Assembly: GCA_000415505.1 (NCBI GenBank)
Contig: KE354168.1
Location: 1-36,018 of the forward strand
Length of the DNA stretch: 36,018 nucleotides
Direction: 5' to 3'
DNA from: Streptomyces afghaniensis 772
GTDB lineage: Bacteria; Actinomycetota; Actinomycetes; Streptomycetales; Streptomycetaceae
Each line of letters starts with the position of its first letter. The stretch's first letter is position 1. The position numbers and the translations under genes are program-made. Below are positions 1,009 through 29,868 of this stretch, piece after piece. The notes under the pieces were generated by a model that saw only the letters and a list, made by a program, of their open reading frames with translations, did not search any database and was not told where the DNA came from.

Positions 1009-2943
1009 TCAGGCCGCCTGGCTCCGGCCGGAGCCGGAGCCGGAGGTCGCGTCGCGATACCAGTACTCGAGGGTCAGTACGTGCCAGAGATGCTTGGAGA
1101 AGTCCCGCTGCCCGGCGGCGTCCTCGGCGACCATCCGCGCCAGCGCGTCGCGGCGCAGCAACCCGGAATTGACGAGCACACCGTCGTTCACCACCTCGCG
1201 CACCAGCGGTGCCAGGTCCCGGCTCATCCAGGCGCGCAGCGGGGCGCTGAACAGGCCCTTGGGCCGGTAGACGATCTCCCGGGGCAGGATCGAGGTGGCG
1301 GCCTCCTTGAGGACGGCCTTGCCCTGGCGTCCGACGATCTTGCGATCACCGGGCACGGCGAACGCCGCCCTGACCACCTCGACGTCCACGTACGGCACCC
1401 GCACCTCGGTCGACGCGGCCATGCTCGACCGGTCCGTGTAAGCGAGGTTCAGGCCCGGCAGGAACATCCGGGCGTCGCCCAGGCACATGCGGTTGACGAA
1501 GTCGTCGAGGTCGTTGTCCCGGTAGACGTCCGCATGCTCGGTCAGCACGTCCTCGACCGCCCCGCCCAGGTCCGGATCGACCAACGCGAGCAGCTCCGCC
1601 TGGTCGTACATGGTGTAGCTGCGCCGGAACGCGGTCTCCTCCGGCAGCTCGGCGAAGGAGAGGAACCGCTTCGCGAAGCGCACCGACCGGTACCCCCGGC
1701 GGCTCGTCGCGACCGGCAGCCGGTCCACCGCCCTGGACAGGCCGCGCCGCAGGGGCCGCGGGACGCGCTGGTAGCGCAGCGCGAGCAGGTTGGCCAGGTG
1801 CTTGCGGTACCCGGCGAACAGCTCGTCGGCGCCCATCCCGGAGAGCATCACCTTGACCCCGGCCTCGCGGGCGGCCGAGCAGATCAGGAACGTGTTGATC
1901 GCTGCGGGGTCGCCGATCGGCTCGTCCAGGTGGTACGTCATCCGCGGCAGCAGGTCGAGCACGTCCGGAGCGATCTCGATCTCCCGCAGGTCGACGCCGA
2001 ACCGCTCGGCCACCTGCCGGGCATAGCGCAGGTCGTCCGGCATCGCCTCGAACCTGGCGTCCTCGGCGCGGAACCCGATCGTGTATGCGGAGATCCCGGG
2101 CCGGTCACGGGCCGCCAGCGCGGTCAGATAGCTGGAATCCAGACCGCCGGAGAGGAAGGTCGCCACGGGTACGTCGGACAGCAGGTGGCGCCGGGTCGAC
2201 TCCTCGACGACGGCGGCGATGTCCGGCTGCTCGCCGGCCTGCGCCCGCTCCCGGCCCTCGGCGGCGACGTCCTTCAGGTGCCAGAACCGGCCGCGCTCCA
2301 CCCGGCCGTCGGGCCGGCACCTCAGCCAGCTCCCCGGCGGCAGCTTCTCCGCCTCGCGGAAAGCGCACCGTGAGTCCGGCACCCAGTAGTACAACAGTGA
2401 GGCCACCAGTGCCGCATGGTCCACCTCCAGCGTCCCGCCGGTCGCGGCGGCGAGTGCCTTCAGCTCGGAGGCGAACACCAGACCCTCGCCGCGCCGGAGC
2501 AGGAACAGCGGCTTGATGCCGAGCTGGTCGCGGGCGAGCACCAGCTCACCGGTCCGCTCGTCGAAGATCCCGAACGCGAACATGCCGCGCAGCCGGGGCA
2601 AGCAGTCCGTGCCCCAGCGGCGCCAGGCCTCGAGGAGCACCTCGGTGTCGGAGGTGCCGCGGAAGCGCACCCCGGCGGCCGCCAGCTCGACGCGCAGCTC
2701 GGGCGCGTTGTACAGCTCGCCGTTGTACGTCAGGACGAGGCCGCCCGAGACCATCGGCTGGGCGCCGGTTTCGGACAGGTCGATGATGGCCAGCCGGCGG
2801 TGCCCGAGGTGCACTTCGCCGTCACCGGCGGGGTGGCTGTACCGGCCCGCCCCGTCCGGACCGCGGTGGGCGAGGGTATCGGTGAGCCGGTCGGTCACGA
2901 CCTTCCCGTCCGGCCATCGGTAAGTGCCTGCGATGCCACACAT
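1009..2943 (-). CDS. asnB: AsnB-type glutamine-dependent amidotransferase (asparagine synthase family)
   Basis: The 644-residue product has the two domains of class B asparagine synthetases. The N-terminal class II glutaminase domain starts MCGIAG, so Cys2 becomes the nucleophile after Met removal, and YNGE lies at 73-76. The C-terminal synthetase domain carries the ATP-pyrophosphatase loop SGGLDSS at 265-271. The ATG at 2943 is fixed by the need for Cys2 and by AGGAGG upstream. An in-frame extension upstream would bury the catalytic Cys and lies over the previous gene. The start is 2 bases after the stop of the upstream Wzz-like gene, so translation is probably coupled. Its place inside a polysaccharide operon suggests amide transfer to a sugar carboxylate, as proposed for WbpS-like proteins, rather than housekeeping asparagine synthesis. 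That role is inferred. Confidence 0.92.
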   Translation of the reverse strand: MCGIAGTYRWPDGKVVTDRLTDTLAHRGPDGAGRYSHPAGDGEVHLGHRRLAIIDLSETGAQPMVSGGLVLTYNGELYNAPELRVELAAAGVRFRGTSDTEVLLEAWRRWGTDCLPRLRGMFAFGIFDERTGELVLARDQLGIKPLFLLRRGEGLVFASELKALAAATGGTLEVDHAALVASLLYYWVPDSRCAFREAEKLPPGSWLRCRPDGRVERGRFWHLKDVAAEGRERAQAGEQPDIAAVVEESTRRHLLSDVPVATFLSGGLDSSYLTALAARDRPGISAYTIGFRAEDARFEAMPDDLRYARQVAERFGVDLREIEIAPDVLDLLPRMTYHLDEPIGDPAAINTFLICSAAREAGVKVMLSGMGADELFAGYRKHLANLLALRYQRVPRPLRRGLSRAVDRLPVATSRRGYRSVRFAKRFLSFAELPEETAFRRSYTMYDQAELLALVDPDLGGAVEDVLTEHADVYRDNDLDDFVNRMCLGDARMFLPGLNLAYTDRSSMAASTEVRVPYVDVEVVRAAFAVPGDRKIVGRQGKAVLKEAATSILPREIVYRPKGLFSAPLRAWMSRDLAPLVREVVNDGVLVNSGLLRRDALARMVAEDAAGQRDFSKHLWHVLTLEYWYRDATSGSGSGRSQAA

Positions 2944-2945
2944 GT

Positions 2946-4499
2946 CTACCGCGCCTCCTGGTCGCTGCCCGGGATCCGTGCCGTCCACATCGGCAGCCGC
3001 TCCGTCCGATGCCGGCCCTCCGCCACTGTCTGAACGGCGTGGGAGGTACCCCCACCGTTCTGCCGGGCCGACCGCTCGGGCCGGCCGCGCAGCGCGGTGT
3101 GCGGCCCGTCCCACAGCGTGCCGTCGGTCCGGTCACGCGGATCGGGGTCGATCAGCACCACACCGATCACCGCGATGCGCTGGTCCGCGAGCTGCCGCGC
3201 CACGGTGTGCAGCCATGCGGCGCTGCCGTGCCCGGCACGCACGACGAGCACGGTCTGAGTGCCGAGGTACTGGAGGTCGGTCCACGCCGTGCCGGGCGCC
3301 ACCGAGCCGACGCCGATCCGGTACCCCTCAGGCGACACGGCCGCGGCGCGCTCGCCGCCGACCACGGTGGGGTCTCCTGGCTTGGGGCGGCGGCCTGCGA
3401 GCTGCGGGCCGGGCAGGCCATCGACGATGACCACCGGTCCGTCCGCCGCCAGTTCCCGGGCGAGATCCAGGGCGATCACGCTCGTGCTGCGCGCACAGCC
3501 CAGTTCCAGCAGCGACACCGGTTCCGCGGAACCGCGCACGGTGCGGGCCAGGGTTCCGGTGAGCCGTATCCGTGCCGCCCGCGTCCGCCGGCGCTGCCAC
3601 AGCCTGCCCGACCTGCGGGGCAGCTCCGCGATGACCGAGGCGCCGAGGTTCGCCGCGATGTCCCGGCGCAGCACCGGGCGGTCCGCCACCACTGTGCCGA
3701 CCGCGGCCACCGCGAGCCCGAGGACCAGCCCGAGGACGAGCCCGATCGCGGCGTTGGTGGCGGCGGTCCTGGGCAGGGAGTGCCGCACCGCGCGCGGGGC
3801 GTCCACGATCTGTGTGCCGGCGACGAGCTGGGGCGTGCCGAGGCGCGCCTCCTCGGCGCGCTGGTCGAAGTCGGCGATCCGCGAAGTGAGTTCGGCCCGG
3901 CGGGCGAAGAGGGACTCCATGCTCGCCGACGATTTCGGGCCGCTCTCCGGCGGTCCGTCTCCGATCGCCTTGTTGACCTCGGCGAGTTCCTTCCGCATGC
4001 GGTCACGCTGGTCGAGCAGGGCGTCGGCCTCGGCCTTCGCGGTCTCCCGCATCCGCTTGACATGGTCCGCGACGAACGCGTCGGCCAGCGCCTTGGCCCG
4101 GGCCACCGCTTCCGCGTCGCTGTCACCCGTCACATCGATCTGCAGCAGGTTGTTGGTCAAGCCGGTACCTCGGTAGTCCCGCATGAAGTCTTCCGGCTTC
4201 TCCGGGGACTTGAGGGACTGCAGGGCCTGGCCGGCGATCCGCGTGGTGTGCAGCAGTGCGACGTCGGTGCGGATCAGCGTCCCGGTGTCGTTCGGCTGAT
4301 CCTCCTTGTGCGCGACCAGCACCTTGGTCACCGCGGTCGGCGGCGGGGGCATCAGGACCGCCACCGTCGCGCCGACCAGCAGCCCCAGCAGGGCCAAGGA
4401 GCACCAGAGGCGGCGGCGCCTGCGCACCGCCACCACCAGCGCCTGCAGGTCGAGGAGCGGAGCGGCGGCCGACGACTCGGACGTCTTGCTCGTCGTCAC
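2946..4499 (-). CDS. Wzz/chain-length-determinant-like membrane protein with degenerate C-terminal ATPase domain
   Basis: This 517-residue protein has the layout of a polysaccharide co-polymerase. A basic N-terminal stretch (RRRRR, about 26-30) precedes a membrane segment at about 31-51. An external region rich in charged helices (about 130-225, likely coiled coil) leads to a conserved-looking proline (IVDAPRAV, about 231-238) and a second membrane segment at about 248-272. The cytoplasmic tail resembles a bacterial tyrosine-kinase/ParA-type ATPase, but the P-loop position reads GCARSTSV (334-341) with no GKS/GKT, and VVIVDG (356-361) stands where a Walker A' motif would be. Kinase activity is therefore unlikely. 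There is no C-terminal tyrosine cluster. The start overlaps the stop of the preceding Wzz-like gene by 4 bp (ATGA). It probably helps control polymer length or export in the cytoplasmic membrane. Confidence 0.8.
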   Translation of the reverse strand: MTTSKTSESSAAAPLLDLQALVVAVRRRRRLWCSLALLGLLVGATVAVLMPPPPTAVTKVLVAHKEDQPNDTGTLIRTDVALLHTTRIAGQALQSLKSPEKPEDFMRDYRGTGLTNNLLQIDVTGDSDAEAVARAKALADAFVADHVKRMRETAKAEADALLDQRDRMRKELAEVNKAIGDGPPESGPKSSASMESLFARRAELTSRIADFDQRAEEARLGTPQLVAGTQIVDAPRAVRHSLPRTAATNAAIGLVLGLVLGLAVAAVGTVVADRPVLRRDIAANLGASVIAELPRRSGRLWQRRRTRAARIRLTGTLARTVRGSAEPVSLLELGCARSTSVIALDLARELAADGPVVIVDGLPGPQLAGRRPKPGDPTVVGGERAAAVSPEGYRIGVGSVAPGTAWTDLQYLGTQTVLVVRAGHGSAAWLHTVARQLADQRIAVIGVVLIDPDPRDRTDGTLWDGPHTALRGRPERSARQNGGGTSHAVQTVAEGRHRTERLPMWTARIPGSDQEAR

Positions 4500-12974: not shown

Positions 12975-13059
12975 CCCGAGCCCACCCGCCGCGGACGAGC
13001 CGGTCGGACGCCTCGGCGCACCTCTGCCCGCGAATCCGCACTCGAATGGAGACCACGAC

Positions 13060-13827
13060 GTGAACCCCACCTATGACTTCACCGGCCAGGTCGCCCTCGT
13101 CACCGGCGCCGGTGCCGGTATGGGCCTGGCGACCGCCCGCGCGTTCGCCGCGTCCGGGGCCGCCGTCGCCCTCACCGACATCGACGAAGCCGCCCTGAAC
13201 GCGGCCACGAAGGAACTCACCGACGCCGGCCACCGAGCCCTCGCCCTCACCTGCGACGTCAGCGACGAGGAGCAGGTCGCCGCCGCGGTCGACCGCACCG
13301 TGGAGACATTCGGCCGTCTCGACATGGCCTACAACAACGCCGGCATCCAGATCCCGCCCAGCGACGCCGCCGACGAAGGCGCCGAGCGGTTCGACCGCGT
13401 CAACGCCGTCAACCTCCGCGGCGTATGGGCCTGTATGAAGCACGAGCTGCGGCACATGCGCGCCCAGGGCAGCGGCGCCATCGTCAACTGCTCCTCGCTC
13501 GGCGGCCTGGTGGGCCTGCCCGGCCGTGCCTCGTACCACGCCTCCAAGCACGGCGTCATCGGCCTGACCGGCAGCGCCGCCCTCGAATACGCCCCGCGCG
13601 GGATCCGCGTCAACGCCGTCTGCCCCGGCACCATCGACACCCCCATGGTCAGCGACATGATCTCCAAGGGAGAACTCGACCGCGCCGAGGCCGAGGCCAA
13701 CCAGCCCATCAACCGCCTCGGCACCGCCGAGGAGATCGCCCAGGCGGTCCTGTGGCTGTGCAGCCCCGGAGCGAGTTTCGTCGTCGGTGTCGCCCTCCCG
13801 GTCGACGGCGGCTACGTGGCCCGCTAG
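13060..13827 (+). CDS. SDR family oxidoreductase (classical short-chain dehydrogenase)
   Basis: The 255-residue product has every classical SDR element. The cofactor loop TGAGAGMG is near 15-22, and Asp at the end of beta-2 (TDIDE) favours NAD(H). The NNAG motif is near 91-94, the catalytic Ser is in NCSSLGG, the YHASK catalytic Tyr/Lys pair is near 158-162, and the PG motif is in CPGTIDTPM. The C-terminus LPVDGGYVAR is typical. The GTG at 13060 follows TGGAGA at a normal distance. It reduces or oxidises a carbonyl/alcohol substrate that cannot be named from the sequence. Linkage to an MFS exporter and an XRE regulator suggests detoxification of a reactive carbonyl or alcohol. Confidence 0.93.
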   Translation: MNPTYDFTGQVALVTGAGAGMGLATARAFAASGAAVALTDIDEAALNAATKELTDAGHRALALTCDVSDEEQVAAAVDRTVETFGRLDMAYNNAGIQIPPSDAADEGAERFDRVNAVNLRGVWACMKHELRHMRAQGSGAIVNCSSLGGLVGLPGRASYHASKHGVIGLTGSAALEYAPRGIRVNAVCPGTIDTPMVSDMISKGELDRAEAEANQPINRLGTAEEIAQAVLWLCSPGASFVVGVALPVDGGYVAR

Positions 13828-13838
13828 GTCCCGCACCC

Positions 13839-13906
13839 CTAGGGCATGTCCGCAAAGTCCCGTCGTCCGCCCGCGGGGCAGGCGGGACTTTGCGGACACG
13901 CCCTAG
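13839..13906. terminator. Long hairpin, 24-bp arms with one mismatch; probable bidirectional terminator or dispersed palindromic element
   Basis: Arms at 13839-13862 and 13883-13906 pair at 23 of 24 positions, starting CTAGGG and containing TGTCCGCAAAGTCCCG, around a 20-nt G+C-rich loop. It begins 11 bp after the dehydrogenase stop codon, where a terminator is expected. From general knowledge, very similar palindromes are found after genes in many Streptomyces genomes, so this may be a dispersed repeat family rather than a site unique to this locus. Confidence 0.75.
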
Positions 13907-14111
13907 GCCCCGCACAGGCTCTCCTGGCGGAGCCTAAAGGGGGAGAAAAGTCTCCCTGTCACGAGCGTTGCCGGTGGTGCAAGACTCCCCGGGCGACCAG
14001 TCGCCGCTGCCGAGGCGCACGGTCGCCCCATTCCCCCCGCGGTGACGACGATCCAGTCTCCCGTCCCGCCGTTGTGTACGGCCGATCCGTCCGCGATACG
14101 AAGGCGTACGT

Positions 14112-14759
14112 ATGTCAACTGAACCTCCTGAGTCCGCCGTTCCACCCCCCACCGGCGCCGGCGAGTCCTCCCCGGCGCCCACCCGGCGCACCTTCATCGC
14201 CACCACCACCGCGGTCGGCGGTGCTGTCGTCGCGGGCGGCGTGATCGGAGGGCCCCTGCTCTCCGACCCGGAGGCGGTGGCCGCCCAGGCACCGCCCACC
14301 AGCCGGGTCTCCCTCACGGTCAACGGCACCCGCCGGACCGCGACGGTGGACAACCGCACCTCGCTGCTCGACCTGCTGCGCGAGCACTTCGGCCTGACCG
14401 GTGCCAAGAAGGGCTGCAACGCCGGTGCCTGCGGCGCGTGCACCGTCCTGGTCGACGGCCACCGGGTCAACTCCTGCCTGACACTGGCCGTCCGGCTGGA
14501 GGGCGCCGAGGTCACCACGATCGAGGGCCTGGCCGAGGGAGACCGACTGCACCCCTTGCAACAGGCGTTCATCGACCAGGACGCCTTCCAGTGCGGCTAC
14601 TGCACGCCCGGGCAGATCGTCTCCGGCGTCGGCTGCATCAAGGAAGGCCACACCGGCTCGCCGGAGGAGATCCGGGAGTGGATGAGCGGCAACATCTGCC
14701 GCTGCGGCTGCTACGTCAAGATCGTGCGCGCGGTGGAGCAGACCGCGGGCCGGAAGTGA
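14112..14759 (+). CDS. Aldehyde oxidase/xanthine dehydrogenase family 2Fe-2S subunit, Tat-exported (PaoA/YagT-like)
   Basis: The 215-residue product begins with a long polar region and a twin-arginine signal, TRRTFIATTTAVGG at 24-37, followed by a hydrophobic stretch and AAQA cleavage-like site near 57-60. The mature part has the plant-type ferredoxin cluster ligands Cys102, Cys107, Cys110 and Cys122 (GCNAGACGAC) and the helical second cluster Cys161, Cys164, Cys196 and Cys198 (CGYC; CRC). It passes electrons between the molybdenum and FAD subunits. Only this subunit has a Tat signal, so the assembled, cofactor-loaded complex is probably carried out as a whole, as known for E. coli PaoABC. 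The next gene starts 12 bp downstream. The weak ribosome site GAAGG precedes the ATG. Confidence 0.93.
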   Translation: MSTEPPESAVPPPTGAGESSPAPTRRTFIATTTAVGGAVVAGGVIGGPLLSDPEAVAAQAPPTSRVSLTVNGTRRTATVDNRTSLLDLLREHFGLTGAKKGCNAGACGACTVLVDGHRVNSCLTLAVRLEGAEVTTIEGLAEGDRLHPLQQAFIDQDAFQCGYCTPGQIVSGVGCIKEGHTGSPEEIREWMSGNICRCGCYVKIVRAVEQTAGRK

Positions 14760-14771
14760 GGAACGGCCGCC

Positions 14772-15752
14772 ATGCATCCCTTCTCCTACACCCGCGTCTC
14801 CGATACGCGTGAGGCCGTCGACGCCGGTCGCCGCGGCGGGCGTTACATCGCCGGGGGCACCACCCTGGTCGACCTCATGCGCGAGACCGTCGAACGCCCC
14901 GAGACCCTCGTCGACATCACCGGCCTGCCGCTCGGCGAGATCACCGCCACCGAGCGCGGGGGCTTGCGCATCGGCGCCCTGGTGACCATGTCCGAGGCCG
15001 CCGCCCACGCCAAGGTGCGCACCCTGTATCCCGTCGTCTCCGAGGCGCTGGAGCTGAGCGCTTCGGCGCAGCTGCGGAACATGGCGACCATCGGCGGCAA
15101 CATCATGCAGCGCACCCGGTGCACGTACTTCCGGGACGTGACAGCCGACTGCAACAAGCGTGACCCCGGCTCCGGTTGTGCCGCACTGCACGGAGTCAAC
15201 CGCACGCACGCCATCCTCGGGACCTCCGGCGCCTGCGTGGCCACCCACCCCTCCGACGTCGCCGTGGCCTTCGCGGCCCTGGAGGCCCGGGTGCACCTGC
15301 TGGGCCCGGACGGGACACGCCGAGTTCCCTTCAGCGACTTCCTGTTGCGGCCCGGCAGCACCCCGCAACGCGAACAAGCCCTGCTCAAAGGCGAGTTGAT
15401 CACTGCGGTGGAGATCCCCGCCCTGCCGCGCCCGCTCAGGTCCGGCTATCTCAAGGTGCGTGACCGGCAGTCGTACGAGTTCGCCCTGACGTCGGCGGCC
15501 GTCGCGCTGCACATACGCGGCGGGGTGATCCGCGAGGCCAGGGTCGCCGCCGGGGGAGTGGGCACCGTGCCCTGGAAGCTGCCCGCCGTCGAGCGACACC
15601 TCGTCGGTGAACGCCCCTCGGGGGCCCTCTGGTCGGCCGCTGCCGCGAAGGCGTCGGACGGCGCCCGTCCCCTTCAGCACAACCGGTTCAAGGTCGAGCT
15701 GCTCAAGCGCACGGTCGAACGCCAGCTGCGCGTCGTAGGAGGTACCAAGTGA
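14772..15752 (+). CDS. FAD-binding subunit with 4Fe-4S insertion (PaoB/YagS-like)
   Basis: This 326-residue FAD subunit belongs to the molybdenum hydroxylase family. The FAD pyrophosphate loop AGGTTLVDLM is at 27-36 and TIGGNI at 106-111. Inserted after it is a cysteine-rich loop, with Cys117 and Cys127 in TRCTYFRDVTADCNKR, then Cys136 and Cys155. This insertion is the mark of the PaoB/HcrB branch, which binds an extra 4Fe-4S cluster not found in ordinary xanthine dehydrogenases. There is no signal peptide, consistent with export by hitch-hiking on the Tat-tagged small subunit. The 3' end overlaps the molybdopterin subunit gene by 4 bp (GTGA). Confidence 0.92.
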   Translation: MHPFSYTRVSDTREAVDAGRRGGRYIAGGTTLVDLMRETVERPETLVDITGLPLGEITATERGGLRIGALVTMSEAAAHAKVRTLYPVVSEALELSASAQLRNMATIGGNIMQRTRCTYFRDVTADCNKRDPGSGCAALHGVNRTHAILGTSGACVATHPSDVAVAFAALEARVHLLGPDGTRRVPFSDFLLRPGSTPQREQALLKGELITAVEIPALPRPLRSGYLKVRDRQSYEFALTSAAVALHIRGGVIREARVAAGGVGTVPWKLPAVERHLVGERPSGALWSAAAAKASDGARPLQHNRFKVELLKRTVERQLRVVGGTK

Positions 15753-24443: not shown

Positions 24444-26168
24444 TCACCCGCTGTCCAGGTCGGCGGCGAGTTCGTCGTGCCAGTGGAGGGAGACCCGCTG
24501 GTCGAGGATCGTCGCCGCGGCGACCGGGAGGGGGAGTCGGAGGAACTCGCGCAGCGCGCCGGCCGCCTTGTCGCGTGCGTCCCACGCGGTGAGGTCCTCG
24601 TGGGACACGGGGGCGGTGCCGCCGTCCCGTAGCAGCCGCCGGGTCGCATGGGCCTCCGCGGCCAGGGTGCGCAGGCGCGAATCCAGGGGGCCGTCCTGGT
24701 CGCAGTCGACGGGCAGGCCGCGGTGGATCCGGTCGAGGGCCTCGGCCACCTCCGGGTAGGTGTCGAGGTGCGTCTCCGCGGCCAGGCGCGACAGCTGGGA
24801 CACGAAGGCCGCGCGCAGCCGCTGCGGCGGTGTGCGCTCCACGAGCTCGGCCAGATCCAAGTGCCGTACCTGGGCGGGGATTCCGCAGTCCTCCGTGGGG
24901 AGGTCGTCCAGGAGGGGCAGCAGCAGGGCACTGGTCAGCTCCGCCGGACCCTCCTCGTCCGGGTCGTAGGCGATGCCGAAGTCCCGCCGCAGTACGGCCA
25001 GGAAGCGGGTGTAGGCGGCGGTCGACCCGGGCCACAGGTCGACGCCGAGGCGCCGTGCCTCCGGCCCGCCGGCGGCGGTGCCCTCGCGCGGTGACATGAC
25101 GCGCCGGGTGTCCTCCCGGGGACACGGCACGCCGTTCTCGGCGAAGGCGAGCACGACCTCCGGGCCGTGTCGGGTCAGCACCGCCACGCGCGTGCCGGCG
25201 GACAGGGCGCGCAGCACCTCCGGCCGGGCGAACTGCGCGGCGCCGCCCTCCAGCGTGGCGTACGCCCAGCCGCCGGCCTCGCCCGCACGGACCAGGGGCC
25301 GGTGCGCGGCCCACGCGGACTGCGCCGCCCGCTGGGCCTGTCGGCGGTCGCGCGGCCGTACGGTGGCGGGGATCGCGCCGAGCCGGCGCAGCATCTCGGC
25401 CGGGGTCAGGCCGGCGGCGAACGCGACGTCAGGCTGGTCCGGGAGCGGTGCGGGATGCGGCCGGCGGGTGCGGACGAAGAAGAGCCGCTGCGTCCCGCCC
25501 CGCTCGGGCGGCCGCGGGTCGCTCCCGGCCGCGTTCGGGAAGACCGGGCGCTGCGGCGCCGGCGGGTCGGACTCCGGCTCGGCGAGCGCGGCGGCCCGCG
25601 TCAGCGGGGAGACCGCCTCGGCGGGCACGGTCCGCTCCTCCTCCCACCCCAGCTTTCCGGCCACGGCGAGAGGGATGCGGCCGAGGAACACCAGACCGCC
25701 CTCCAGGGCGTCCGCGAGGCCGGCCAGAACATGACGCAGCGAGGGCCAATGCGCGAACGAGGGCGTGTCCTCGTCGAAGCGGCGGCCCACCTGACCGTAG
25801 CGGGGGCCGGGACGGCAGGCGATGAACAGGCCGTCCGAGGGCCGCCGGCCGATGCCCAGGGTGAGGGGCAACCCGGCCTCACCCGCCCCGAGGCTCTGGA
25901 GGAAGGCCGTGTTCCGCACGATGTCCGCGACACCGCACAGCGGTCCGTAGGACGGCAACTGAACTGCGCCGTCGTCGGGTTCCGCCCCGTCGTGGCACCG
26001 CAGCGAGGCCACCAGATCCGGGGGGAACGGCACGCCGAGCGTGCGCTGCGCGTCCTCGATGCCGGCCTGCGGAGCGGGCGGGCGCAGCGTGGCGCGGGTG
26101 AGGGGAGCGTGCCGGGCCAGCCAGGCGTCGATGCGGGCCCAGGACTCCTCGACGGCGGGGAGGCTCAT
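24444..26168 (-). CDS. SMI1/KNR4-like protein
   Basis: The 574-residue soluble protein has an N-terminal SMI1/KNR4 domain (about 1-190). IEDAQRTLGVPFPPDLVASLRCHDGAE is the first conserved helix-strand unit and the later YGQVGRRFDEDTPSFAHWPSL is typical of the fold. The rest is less familiar. A middle proline-rich linker (about 215-255) leads to a second domain with HRPLVRAGEAGGWAYATLEGG, resembling small DUF6461-type proteins, and a helical C-terminus. SMI1/KNR4 proteins are often immunity partners of polymorphic toxins, but no toxin gene is visible nearby, and many Streptomyces copies are orphans. The ATG at 26168 is chosen at the first conserved residues. A long upstream in-frame extension crosses the divergent intergenic region and is not favoured. 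Confidence 0.8.
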   Translation of the reverse strand: MSLPAVEESWARIDAWLARHAPLTRATLRPPAPQAGIEDAQRTLGVPFPPDLVASLRCHDGAEPDDGAVQLPSYGPLCGVADIVRNTAFLQSLGAGEAGLPLTLGIGRRPSDGLFIACRPGPRYGQVGRRFDEDTPSFAHWPSLRHVLAGLADALEGGLVFLGRIPLAVAGKLGWEEERTVPAEAVSPLTRAAALAEPESDPPAPQRPVFPNAAGSDPRPPERGGTQRLFFVRTRRPHPAPLPDQPDVAFAAGLTPAEMLRRLGAIPATVRPRDRRQAQRAAQSAWAAHRPLVRAGEAGGWAYATLEGGAAQFARPEVLRALSAGTRVAVLTRHGPEVVLAFAENGVPCPREDTRRVMSPREGTAAGGPEARRLGVDLWPGSTAAYTRFLAVLRRDFGIAYDPDEEGPAELTSALLLPLLDDLPTEDCGIPAQVRHLDLAELVERTPPQRLRAAFVSQLSRLAAETHLDTYPEVAEALDRIHRGLPVDCDQDGPLDSRLRTLAAEAHATRRLLRDGGTAPVSHEDLTAWDARDKAAGALREFLRLPLPVAAATILDQRVSLHWHDELAADLDSG

Positions 26169-26375
26169 GGCAGCGGACCCTACGCCGGGCCACTGACAGT
26201 GCCCCTGCCCTTCCTGCTCCGGCAGCGTCGTAATCTCGCCGAATTTGTGTGCGGGCGTACGGCGAGGTGAGCGATGAGGCAAGCGGCGGAAGAATGGTGG
26301 GTGAGGGCCTGGCGGGGTCCCGGGGCAGGTTCGGACGGAAACGAGCCGCCGGACCCGCTCCGCAACCGCGACCAC

Positions 26376-26415
26376 TGTCTTCGGACCGGCACGAGTGTCT
26401 TCGGACCGGCACGAG
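26376..26415. repeat. Perfect 20-bp tandem duplication upstream of the amidase gene
   Basis: The unit TGTCTTCGGACCGGCACGAG occurs twice without spacer (26376-26395 and 26396-26415). The second copy ends 24 bp before the amidase ATG, just ahead of its ribosome site CGGAGG. It could be a recent slippage duplication or a pair of regulatory sites. Confidence 0.9.
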
Positions 26416-26439
26416 CGCGCCGAAACGGAGGACCGACGC

Positions 26440-27501
26440 ATGGCCACACCGCTCACCGCCGCCCGGCTCGTCGCCGCGCTGAAGGCCGAGGGCTGCGCCG
26501 TTCACGAAGTCGGTGGATGGCGCACCAACAACCGCAACCACAAGGGTCCTTGGGGTCCCGTGCACGGGGTGATGATCCATCACACCGTCACCGGGCCCGG
26601 CACGGACGTCGTCGACCTGATCTACCACGGCCACAGCGCCCTGCCCGGTCCGCTCGCCACCGGGTGCATCACCAAGGACGGCGTCGTCCACCTCACCGGC
26701 AACGGCCGGGCCAACCACGCCGGCGGCGGCGACGGCGACGTGCTGAATGCCGTCATCGGCGAGTCGTACGGCACGTACCCGCCCGCGACGCACGAGCACG
26801 ACGGCTCGGCCGGCGCGGTCGACGGCAACGCCCGTTTCTACGGCTGGGAGTGCGAGAACAAGGGCGACGGCAAGGACCCGTGGCCGAGTGCCCAGTACAT
26901 CGCCATCGTCAAGGCCACCGCCGCGATCTGCCGCGCGCACGGCTGGGGCCCCAAGAGCGCGATCGGTCACCTGGAGTGGAGCGACTGGAAGGTCGATCCG
27001 CGCGGATTCGACATGGCCGACTTCCGCCGTGACGTCGCCGACGCCCTGGCCCACTCGGCCGGCTTGTGGGAAGGAGAGGACCCCATGCCCCAGTACGTCA
27101 ACCTCGGTGCCACCGGGGGCTATCGGCTCGCGCCCGGTGCCTGGGACTCGGTCGAGTTCACCACGGAATGGGCCGACGAGACCGGCCACCACGCCACCGG
27201 CGGGAGCGTCTTCGCCCGTGGCCCGGCCCGTTTCAGCGGGAGTGTCAGCCTGCACATCGACGGGCTGCCGGCGGGTGCGGTCGTCCAGGCGCGCATGTCG
27301 GAGTACGAGGGTGACCAGCACCGCGCCGACCACCCGATCCACGAGATCGTCGGGACCGGCGGCGGCACCTTCGCGGTCGTGCCCCTGACGAAGCGGCTCC
27401 CGTCCCGCCGGAGCATGCGGGTACGGCTGCTGAACCAGGCCGCCGTCCCGGTCACCGTCGCGAGCGCGGTGCTGACCGTGCTGGTGTGGAAGGAGACCTG
27501 A
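26440..27501 (+). CDS. N-acetylmuramoyl-L-alanine amidase, phage-lysin-like
   Basis: The 353-residue product has an N-terminal amidase_2/peptidoglycan-recognition domain (about 1-205). VMIHHTVTGPG places the first zinc-binding His near 47, NHAGG has His93, and GHLEWSDWKVDP supplies His177, Lys184 and Asp186. The C-terminal part (about 215-353) is predicted mostly beta-strand and resembles the C-terminal modules of actinophage endolysins. It should cleave the muramyl-alanine bond of peptidoglycan. There is no Sec, Tat or membrane signal, which is normal for a phage endolysin working with a holin but unusual for a host cell-wall enzyme. No holin or other phage gene is nearby. The ATG at 26440 follows CGGAGG at nine bases. 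Confidence 0.9.
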   Translation: MATPLTAARLVAALKAEGCAVHEVGGWRTNNRNHKGPWGPVHGVMIHHTVTGPGTDVVDLIYHGHSALPGPLATGCITKDGVVHLTGNGRANHAGGGDGDVLNAVIGESYGTYPPATHEHDGSAGAVDGNARFYGWECENKGDGKDPWPSAQYIAIVKATAAICRAHGWGPKSAIGHLEWSDWKVDPRGFDMADFRRDVADALAHSAGLWEGEDPMPQYVNLGATGGYRLAPGAWDSVEFTTEWADETGHHATGGSVFARGPARFSGSVSLHIDGLPAGAVVQARMSEYEGDQHRADHPIHEIVGTGGGTFAVVPLTKRLPSRRSMRVRLLNQAAVPVTVASAVLTVLVWKET

Positions 27502-28877: not shown

Positions 28878-29051
28878 CTACTGCTGCGGGCTGGGTTCCT
28901 GCTGCACCGGTGCGTGCCCGTTCAGGGCCTGCGTCATCTGGTGCTGCGTCTCTTCGGCGACGACGCGAGCCTCCTCGACGACGTCACCGCGTTCGCGTAT
29001 GAGGCTTTCGTAGATCGGCAGTTCTTCGTTCCTGGGCGAGTCGGGTTTCAC
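28878..29051 (-). CDS. Small 57-residue hydrophilic protein, unknown function
   Basis: This frame reads MKPDSPRNEELPIYESLIRE and continues through ERGDVVEEARVVAEETQHQ to a Gln/Pro-rich end. It has G or C in nearly every third codon position, the coding bias of the neighbours, and a GTG start with AGGA nine bases upstream. The protein is a single predicted charged helix with no cysteines and no signal. I recall similar short proteins annotated as hypothetical in Streptomyces, but no function is known to me. It is convergent with the acyltransferase gene, with 3 bp between the stops. Confidence 0.75.
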   Translation of the reverse strand: MKPDSPRNEELPIYESLIRERGDVVEEARVVAEETQHQMTQALNGHAPVQQEPSPQQ

Positions 29052-29211
29052 AGGGGTTGTCCTAACGCTTTACAGCCGGGTCTGAGGGGCCCGTGTAAGT
29101 CTGCGTCATGCCGTGCCGGGGTGTTACCCACCCCCGTCGTGTCCAGAATTCCGTCACGAGCTTCGCGAATTCCCCATCTTTGCGACCGTGGGAAAATACC
29201 CGGGCACGGCG

Positions 29212-29243
29212 AAGGGCCCCGGGAAGCACGTCCCGGGGCCCTT
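29212..29243 (-). terminator. Strong hairpin terminator, perfect 13-bp arms
   Basis: Arms AAGGGCCCCGGGA (29212-29224) and TCCCGGGGCCCTT (29231-29243) pair perfectly around the 6-nt loop AGCACG. On the minus strand the hairpin starts 13 bases after the stop codon of the GG-leader peptide gene (29257-29259). The flanking AAA/TTT adds weak A-T pairs. It probably terminates that gene. By symmetry it may also work on transcripts from the other side. Confidence 0.9.
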
Positions 29244-29256
29244 TACGCGGATGCCG

Positions 29257-29481
29257 TCAGAGCGACGTCGTGTGCACGCCCGCGCTGCCGCCGGCCGCGG
29301 CGCCCTCCGGCGACACGGCGCCCTGGAGGTCGGCGCAGACGCCCGCGGTCAGGGGCTCGACCAGGCCGCTGGAGAGGCTGCCCACGAGGCCCAGGGAGGC
29401 GCCGCCCGCCATACCGCCGGAGACGGTCTCCAGGTCGGCGTCGGACAGTTCGGCGATGTCGACCCGAGAGGTGAGGTTCAT
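29257..29481 (-). CDS. Small peptide with a double-glycine-type leader (bacteriocin/RiPP-like precursor), orphan
   Basis: The 74-residue product has a leader ending DIAELSDADLETVSGG (residues 8-23). This is the acidic L-x-D-x-D-L-x-x-V-x-GG pattern of leaders cut by C39-type peptidase transporters. The remaining 51 residues are rich in Gly, Ala, Leu and Ser (GGASLGLVGSLSSGL), with a single Cys49 and an end GSAGVHTTSL. About 95% of third codon positions are G or C, so this is a real gene. The ATG at 29481 follows GAAGGG. A single cysteine makes a multi-ring lanthipeptide unlikely. A GxxxG-type bacteriocin or another secreted peptide fits better. No maturation enzyme, C39 transporter or immunity gene is adjacent. 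The terminator at 29212 shows it is transcribed as a unit. Confidence 0.8.
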   Translation of the reverse strand: MNLTSRVDIAELSDADLETVSGGMAGGASLGLVGSLSSGLVEPLTAGVCADLQGAVSPEGAAAGGSAGVHTTSL

Positions 29482-29868
29482 TGGAGGTGTTTCCCTTCGC
29501 GTGAATATCTCGCAGTGGCGGCGAGCGTGGGGGGTCGCCGGATCCAGAACCGGGATTCCGCACCGACGGCTCCGCCGTGCGCAGGATCAAAGCACTCCAC
29601 GGGAGAAAAGATCCAGCCGCCTCCCGGCGCCGCACCGAGCTTTTCGGCGACCGTCTTCACCGCCATGACCGCGGGCACACGAAACGCACCCACTTCTTCA
29701 CACACCCTGTCGCTCTGTCGCGCGCACGTGCATTGCGCCCCGATTCCCGAAGCGGGCACTTCGGCGCCAAGTTCTCGTGCCGCGTCACGGACTTGGCGCC
29801 CGGCCCGTCGTTCCACGGTGTCCTGGCGAACGGTGTGCAGATGTGCTGGAGGTTCGGATTCCGCTTCG
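29482..29868. other. Intergenic region between the peptide gene and the CNNM operon
   Basis: This 387-bp stretch is lower in G+C than the flanking genes. A minus-strand frame of up to 112 codons (29478-29816) ends over the peptide start codon, but its third positions are mixed and I do not count it as a gene. The stem-loop at 29763-29800 lies at its CNNM side. The peptide gene promoter should lie between about 29490 and 29600, but no clear hexamer pair was seen. Confidence 0.55.
29763..29800 (-). terminator. Stem-loop with 10-bp perfect arms, probable terminator of the CNNM operon
   Basis: Arms GGCGCCAAGT (29763-29772) and ACTTGGCGCC (29791-29800) pair perfectly. Inside, CGTG and CACG form a second short stem with a CCGCGT loop. 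It starts 69 nt after the stop of the downstream CNNM gene on the minus strand. There is no T-tract, which is common for actinomycete terminators. A regulatory role is also possible. Confidence 0.55.

Follow-up and report, generated by a model that had tools for sequence, protein, structure and literature searches.

Class II two-peptide bacteriocins are hydrophobic, Gly-rich peptides with a short double-glycine (GG) leader and C39 export, and class IIb members are marked by a cationic core and a dedicated immunity gene beside the peptide. Prochlorosins presumably represent a multi-substrate PCAT system like the peptide family described here, with one C39 transporter, a conserved leader and diverse cores. 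The same combination is found in LahT150 and its nine LahA precursors (PMC6363468). In the NHLM systems represented by TIGR03794, TIGR03796 and TIGR03797 (Haft 2010, PMC2887384), variable cores follow a conserved leader and the distribution of the precursors tracks that of the exporter, as is also the case here. In Streptomyces coelicolor, SCO0753-SCO0756 encode a 77-aa peptide, a HlyD-like protein and two ABC proteins; in a two-component-system mutant, SCO0753 is reported to show the strongest overexpression of all genes, and that study proposes the adjacent system as exporter of the hydrophobic peptide (PMC6629963). Raised expression of SCO0753 or SCO0756 is reported for two mutants (PMC5733086, PMC5882110).

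Here we analyze a 74-aa GG precursor gene located in a 36,018-nt stretch of Streptomyces afghaniensis 772 DNA, the whole of which is referred to as the window (Table 1). We find it very probable that the precursor is cut after the GG and exported by a remote NHLM transporter, that the two are co-expressed via a shared upstream element, and that the peptide probably stays unmodified.

The 74-aa gene and its surroundings

An ATG-to-stop frame of 74 codons occupies exactly the position listed in Table 1, with GC contents of 0.72, 0.59 and 0.95 at the three codon positions. Scanning named genomes returned 36 loci, all in Streptomyces, of which the 20 best (L095-L114) are treated as orthologues while the weaker L115-L130 are omitted from the orthologue count. 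All 21 peptides (the window peptide and the 20 named orthologues) contain the GG and exactly one Cys, and the C-terminus reads TTSL in 20 of them and TTAL in one. The frame, its composition and this conservation bear out the first-pass annotation of a 74-aa coding gene, and the GG-ending leader and the Gly/Ala/Ser-rich 51-aa core with a single Cys are present in the sequence as it had described them. Homologues without GG, named there as evidence against its reading, were not seen: the GG is invariant in family alignments of 31 and 21 rows, both built from leader-including searches with extraction patterns that required GG.

Table 1. Features of the window at and around the 74-aa gene (positions of the forward strand of the window).
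Feature	Position	Strand	Basis or remark
74-aa double-glycine precursor peptide gene	29257..29481	-	coordinates include stop codon; GG and one Cys kept in window and 20 orthologues
Leader, 23 aa, MNLTSRVDIAELSDADLETVSGG, ends VSGG; L-12, L-7, V-4, G-2, G-1	29413..29481	-	sequence
Core, 51 aa, Gly/Ala/Ser-rich, acidic, one Cys	29260..29412	-	sequence
GC-rich hairpin 3' of gene	29212..29243	-	13-bp stem; 61-nt fold -39.9 kcal/mol, z -3.8
Shine-Dalgarno block GAAGGG	29493..29498	-	within conserved 5' UTR stretch
5' UTR stretch GAGATATTCACGCGAAGGGAA	~29482-29515	-	near-invariant in 21 orthologues; similar before exporter-linked peptide
Motif GTGCTTTGATCCTGCGCAC	29577..29595	-	begins 114 bp upstream of start codon; one of three genome sites
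TTTGAT in motif, proposed -10 preceded by TG	29586..29591	-	conserved upstream of 21 orthologues and of 11 exporter-linked genes
CTGGAT with conserved TGG, proposed -35-like element (inference)	29611..29616	-	T in 36/44 at -20, G in 44/44 at -18, undemanded
Upstream TGTGAAGA block, a possible activator site	29695..29702	-	~-106 to -100, partly conserved
57-aa charged protein gene	28881-29054	-	directly downstream of peptide gene
Gene for 670-aa protein	24444-26456	-	weak SMI1/KNR4 (SUKH) match below cut-off

Simple counting gives pN/pS values of 0.64 for the leader and 0.81 for the core, which are uncalibrated and biased by the very GC-rich third positions. The calculated average mass of the core is 4553.0 Da if unmodified. 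The AlphaFold model of the window peptide is uninformative (pLDDT 52), and no match was obtained with the peptide in Pfam and PDB sequence searches, nor in a plasmid search. NCBIfam matches are sub-threshold only, with 17.9 bits for TIGR04497 (cut-off 32) and 9.8 bits for TIGR03949 (cut-off 21.5, E 0.67). Unlike that of class IIb bacteriocins, the window core is not cationic (computed charge of -3.4 at pH 7), and the TIGR03949 match lies far below its cut-off.

The gene's surroundings are stable. At E up to 1e-15, 18 of the 21 loci compared contain the peptide, and in 17 of these 18 a gene for a CNNM-domain membrane protein starts ~1.4-1.6 kb upstream of it. On the 3' side, the gene is followed by a GC-rich hairpin. 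A terminator scan requiring a T-run gave no hit after the 74-aa gene, so that the "own strong terminator" originally assigned to it stands as a strong hairpin (z -3.8) and not as a canonical intrinsic terminator. Promoter and terminator scans based on E. coli-type consensus found nothing.

The 57-aa gene downstream of the hairpin could be an immunity or partner gene forming a two-gene unit with the peptide, as it is present at all 20 named orthologous loci; it is also the sole candidate at the window locus, where no specific immunity gene was seen. However, the gene is not peptide-specific, since 104 of 229 genus genomes contain relatives, and no family peptide lies within 1.5 kb on either side of four of the better matches found elsewhere (L214, L216-L218). 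This spread and the peptide-free loci make an immunity gene unlikely and, with the hairpin lying between the two genes, a two-gene unit appears improbable.

A remote NHLM-type exporter and a shared leader

At E up to 0.01, only one C39 match is present in the S. afghaniensis genome, on contig C372, where genes for a 71-aa peptide, a HlyD-like protein, a C39-ABC protein (ABC1), a second ABC protein (ABC2) and a Ppx/GppA phosphatase follow one another on one strand. ABC1, with its C39 peptidase, meets TIGR03796 (1029.7 bits for a cut-off of 853.3) and ABC2 meets TIGR03797 (897.1 bits for a cut-off of 709.4), and the HlyD-like protein scores 156.1 bits against TIGR03794, 0.1 bit short of the cut-off of 156.2. 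SCO0753-SCO0757 display the same gene order, including the following exopolyphosphatase gene, in a match based on gene order and annotation. The window gene differs in lying outside that operon and in having a core unrelated to the exporter-linked peptide. With the C372 C39 domain and HlyD-like protein as queries (tblastn, E up to 1e-3), no match was found at any of 38 places, namely the window, contig C476 and the 36 named loci, each with up to 10 kb of flanking sequence, and the C372 locus itself, serving as positive control, was detected. The earlier observation that no transport genes adjoin the peptide gene holds for C39 and HlyD at all these places, and the label "orphan" fits the gene by position only.

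Looking for further genes with the same leader in this genome, as the first-pass annotation had advised, brought the family to three genes on three contigs, one of them beside the sole C39 match. This second member is the 71-aa peptide encoded directly upstream of the exporter operon on C372. The third (L094, contig C476, 3569-3796, plus strand) encodes 75 aa without Cys, and its contig has no exporter match. The three cores are acidic and hydrophobic. Compared with 21 exporter-linked peptides, the window peptide has a similar leader (mean identity 0.48, mean z 9.3) and a dissimilar core (mean z 0.6). At the level of sequence, one leader precedes unrelated cores throughout the genus. Relatives were found in 68 of 295 genus genomes with a single-sequence search and in 209 of 291 with the 31-row profile; the profile search scored the 20 best candidates per genome, so the counts of family members are lower bounds. 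Across the class, the linked-peptide profile matched 22 of 296 genomes, every one of them from one genus of 114.

The nearest solved structure of the C372 C39 domain is 6MPZ (LahT150, E 6.5e-43), and the alignment includes the Cys, His and Asp that we take to be the catalytic residues. LahT150 recognizes hydrophobic residues at positions -4, -7 and -12 of the leader (PMC6363468), and V-4, L-7 and L-12 of the window leader, together with the GG, match these recognition positions. Within the 291 genus genomes, TIGR03797 is found in 217, with 213 above the cut-off. The exporter is present in all 209 genomes that have the family, 74 genomes have neither and 8 have the exporter only (Fisher p 1.5e-60 for co-occurrence, from counts that ignore kinship). 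Among these eight, a divergent GG peptide lies upstream of the exporter in five, one involves a short contig, and two have none near the exporter. Using a broader C39 model, 208 genomes have both, one (79% complete) has the family only, 19 have C39 only and 63 have neither. A protein acting uncut in the cytosol, with an incidental GG, would explain why no exporter genes adjoin the window gene; given that its leader matches the C39 recognition positions and that no family genome lacks the exporter, we regard such a protein as extremely improbable.

A family peptide is encoded upstream of the exporter in 29 of the 30 best-scoring C39 loci, the 30th locus (L078) being incomplete, and in all 21 hand-picked exporter loci. 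In these 21 loci, neighbor families other than ABC and HlyD recur in at most 11 (home-made gene finder, genes of at least 70 aa). The neighbors scanned at C372 and L131 comprise a SpoIIE phosphatase, MFS, AHSA1, thioesterase, HTH regulator, Ppx/GppA and trypsin-like proteins and a PF14518 redox enzyme; no modification enzyme of the cyclodehydratase or LanM type is found among this scanned part of the neighbors. At L093, the C372 locus, the exporter operon is preceded by an 812-aa GAF/SpoIIE-type phosphatase gene (13038-15476, minus strand), whose cluster recurs in 11 of the 21 exporter loci. A gene for a PF14518 iron-containing, haem-oxygenase-like redox enzyme (2052-3065, minus strand) follows the exporter and phosphatase genes on their downstream side. 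The PF14518 cluster is absent from those common to at least four of the 21 loci.

These neighborhoods bear on whether an enzyme encoded elsewhere could turn the peptide into a modified RiPP, for instance a lanthipeptide, before its export. One Cys is conserved in the window peptide and its 20 orthologues, the PF14518 gene close downstream of the C372 exporter encodes a possible modifier, and NHLM exporters elsewhere are described as serving modified peptides (PMC2887384). In addition, a Streptomyces gene in a Peptidase_C39 cluster is listed as 100% similar to a "type A2 lantipeptide" record (PMC13047742), the correspondence with the present family being one of description only; if placed on this SCO0753-type family, that label looks wrong. 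However, none of the 21 exporter-linked cores tested contains a Cys, nor do the remaining 5 of the 26 linked peptides, which makes thioether rings impossible in those 21 cores. Compared with a class II lanthipeptide, there are too few Cys for several such rings, with one in the window core and none in the linked ones. The lack of Cys in the linked cores and the lack of any neighbor family besides ABC and HlyD that recurs beyond 11 of 21 loci make an unmodified peptide likely, and a modified RiPP is unlikely. The system differs from the NHLM systems described in PMC2887384 in its 23-aa leader, in that the three precursors of this genome have no match to the NHLP (TIGR03793) and N11P (TIGR03798) leader models (NCBIfam, E up to 1 / 0.1), and in that no recurring nearby modification enzyme was seen at the exporter loci.

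An upstream motif shared by dispersed family genes

Nine genomes, the own one included, contain close orthologues of the window gene (at least 71% identity), and each has three or four family members. The orthologue is never found upstream of the exporter, but on another contig (six genomes) or 1.6-6.1 Mb away (three genomes), the distances in the three single-contig genomes being ~1.6, 1.6 and 6.1 Mb. This differs from the LahA precursors, which are all encoded within the lah lanthipeptide cluster (PMC6363468), and from the NHLM systems of PMC2887384, as the substrate genes here lie scattered and are linked by a motif in their upstream regions.

Comparison of the upstream regions shows that GTGCTTTGATC-N3-CGCAC precedes all three family genes of the genome. 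Allowing up to two mismatches, GTGCTTTGATCNNNCGCAC has three sites in the 9.85 Mb genome, all exact and each upstream of and co-directed with a family gene, and the reversed control pattern has none. In the C476 member, the exact motif begins 60 bp before the start codon. Genus-wide, sites with at most one mismatch occur in 142 of 291 genomes, 141 of which have the family, compared to three control sites in all; such a site is missing from 68 of the 209 family genomes. A family peptide lies beside the site in 31 of 32 motif loci examined. The remaining one, L186 (G032:C2), has a one-mismatch site that may be a chance occurrence, and G284 is the motif genome with no family match. Among 117 distinct family genes, the best site has zero, one or two mismatches in 43, 31 and 9 cases, respectively, and the opposite-strand control never has fewer than five. 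The other 34 have the motif only with three or more mismatches (at least five in 20 of them), which suggests that the promoter of some members, for example the MNVAPH group, is a different one or has drifted.

For a wider comparison, 100 of 137 family genes fitted an anchoring pattern, and 44 non-redundant upstream regions were compared; since the pattern requires most of the motif, invariance of the motif in these regions is by construction. Conserved parts that the pattern did not demand are, on the upstream side, a TGG at ~20 bp and a TGTGAAGA-like block at ~100 bp and, immediately downstream, a CGG-like stretch. TG-n-TTTGAT may represent the -10 element, which would place the transcription start near the CA of CGCAC, at ~29578. 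The conservation of the 5' UTR stretch listed in Table 1 seems to exceed what a ribosome site would apparently need.

At most one mismatch to the motif is observed in 23 of 24 distinct orthologous upstream regions, L111 having three. This retention argues against a leader that is a fossil or mimic, in which the orphan gene would have arisen by leader duplication with loss of export. Such an origin would be in line with the window core being unrelated to the linked peptide, and with the peptide diverging faster than its CNNM neighbor (best-segment identity of 61-86% vs 91-97%, 18 loci each). It is nevertheless very improbable, as the window gene and its 20 orthologues are intact and keep the GG, the Cys and the C-terminus.

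Returning to export by the remote transporter, the sharpest link between peptide and exporter is the regulatory motif. The window gene would be transcribed together with the remote exporter operon through this shared and highly specific element, for which we infer a promoter or operator role. The C39 domain of the C372 peptidase-ABC protein would recognize L-12, L-7 and V-4 of the leader and cleave the precursor after the GG, and the complex of ABC1, ABC2 and the HlyD-like protein would export the 51-residue acidic, hydrophobic and probably unmodified core. The same exporter would also serve at least two other cores of this genome, namely the one whose gene adjoins it and one from a separate contig. 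The first-pass suggestion that the gene encodes the substrate of a C39 transporter located elsewhere is strongly supported by the shared leader, the complete co-occurrence at the genome level and the nearly exclusive shared motif.

Possible roles and further core types

The same annotation had considered the gene as a possible founder of an undescribed family. It is instead a branch of the genus-wide leader family, whose exporter-linked member corresponds to the published SCO0753 by gene order. Both the exporter type and the exporter-linked peptide are already published; in a literature search of incomplete coverage, we found no description of unlinked substrates tied to an NHLM-type exporter by leader and promoter.

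As for the activity of the peptide, bacteriocin-like antagonism and signaling between relatives, taken together, are reasonably probable, a role at the hyphal surface is rather doubtful and any other role is quite unlikely. The cores of this genome, being acidic and hydrophobic, do not fit typical cationic bacteriocins, nor do they clearly fit a surface protein. We tentatively consider a dispersed secretion regulon across the genus, in which one exporter and one promoter code would serve species-specific, unrelated cores on a common leader, their mixture forming a multi-component extracellular system. If true, it is the mixture that would act, as a combination bacteriocin, in kin recognition or in hyphal-surface assembly, and not single peptides.

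Genes next to transporters or enzymes are a frequent starting point in the search for precursors. In this genome the motif alone, at up to two mismatches, retrieves the three known substrates in 9.85 Mb and nothing else. This yields a set of secreted peptides, open to testing, for a transporter present in 217 of 291 sampled genus genomes, and the motif DNA could serve as bait for the putative regulator. In relatives, the motif search also led to a new core type, L204, which lies outside the profiles used. This peptide (G033) reads MNSAPQVEA..SGGLSPHAG.., and other core types on the same leader are seen in L121, L123-L125 and L127 (MNSAPQVQT..SGGLAPQIT.. and similar). The motif has one mismatch in L204, L121, L124, L125 and L127 and three in L123. 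The linked peptides of divergent genomes (L148, L149, L159-L163) have very different cores and keep the leader pattern E-[IL]-x-D-x-x-L-D-x-[IV]-x-GG.
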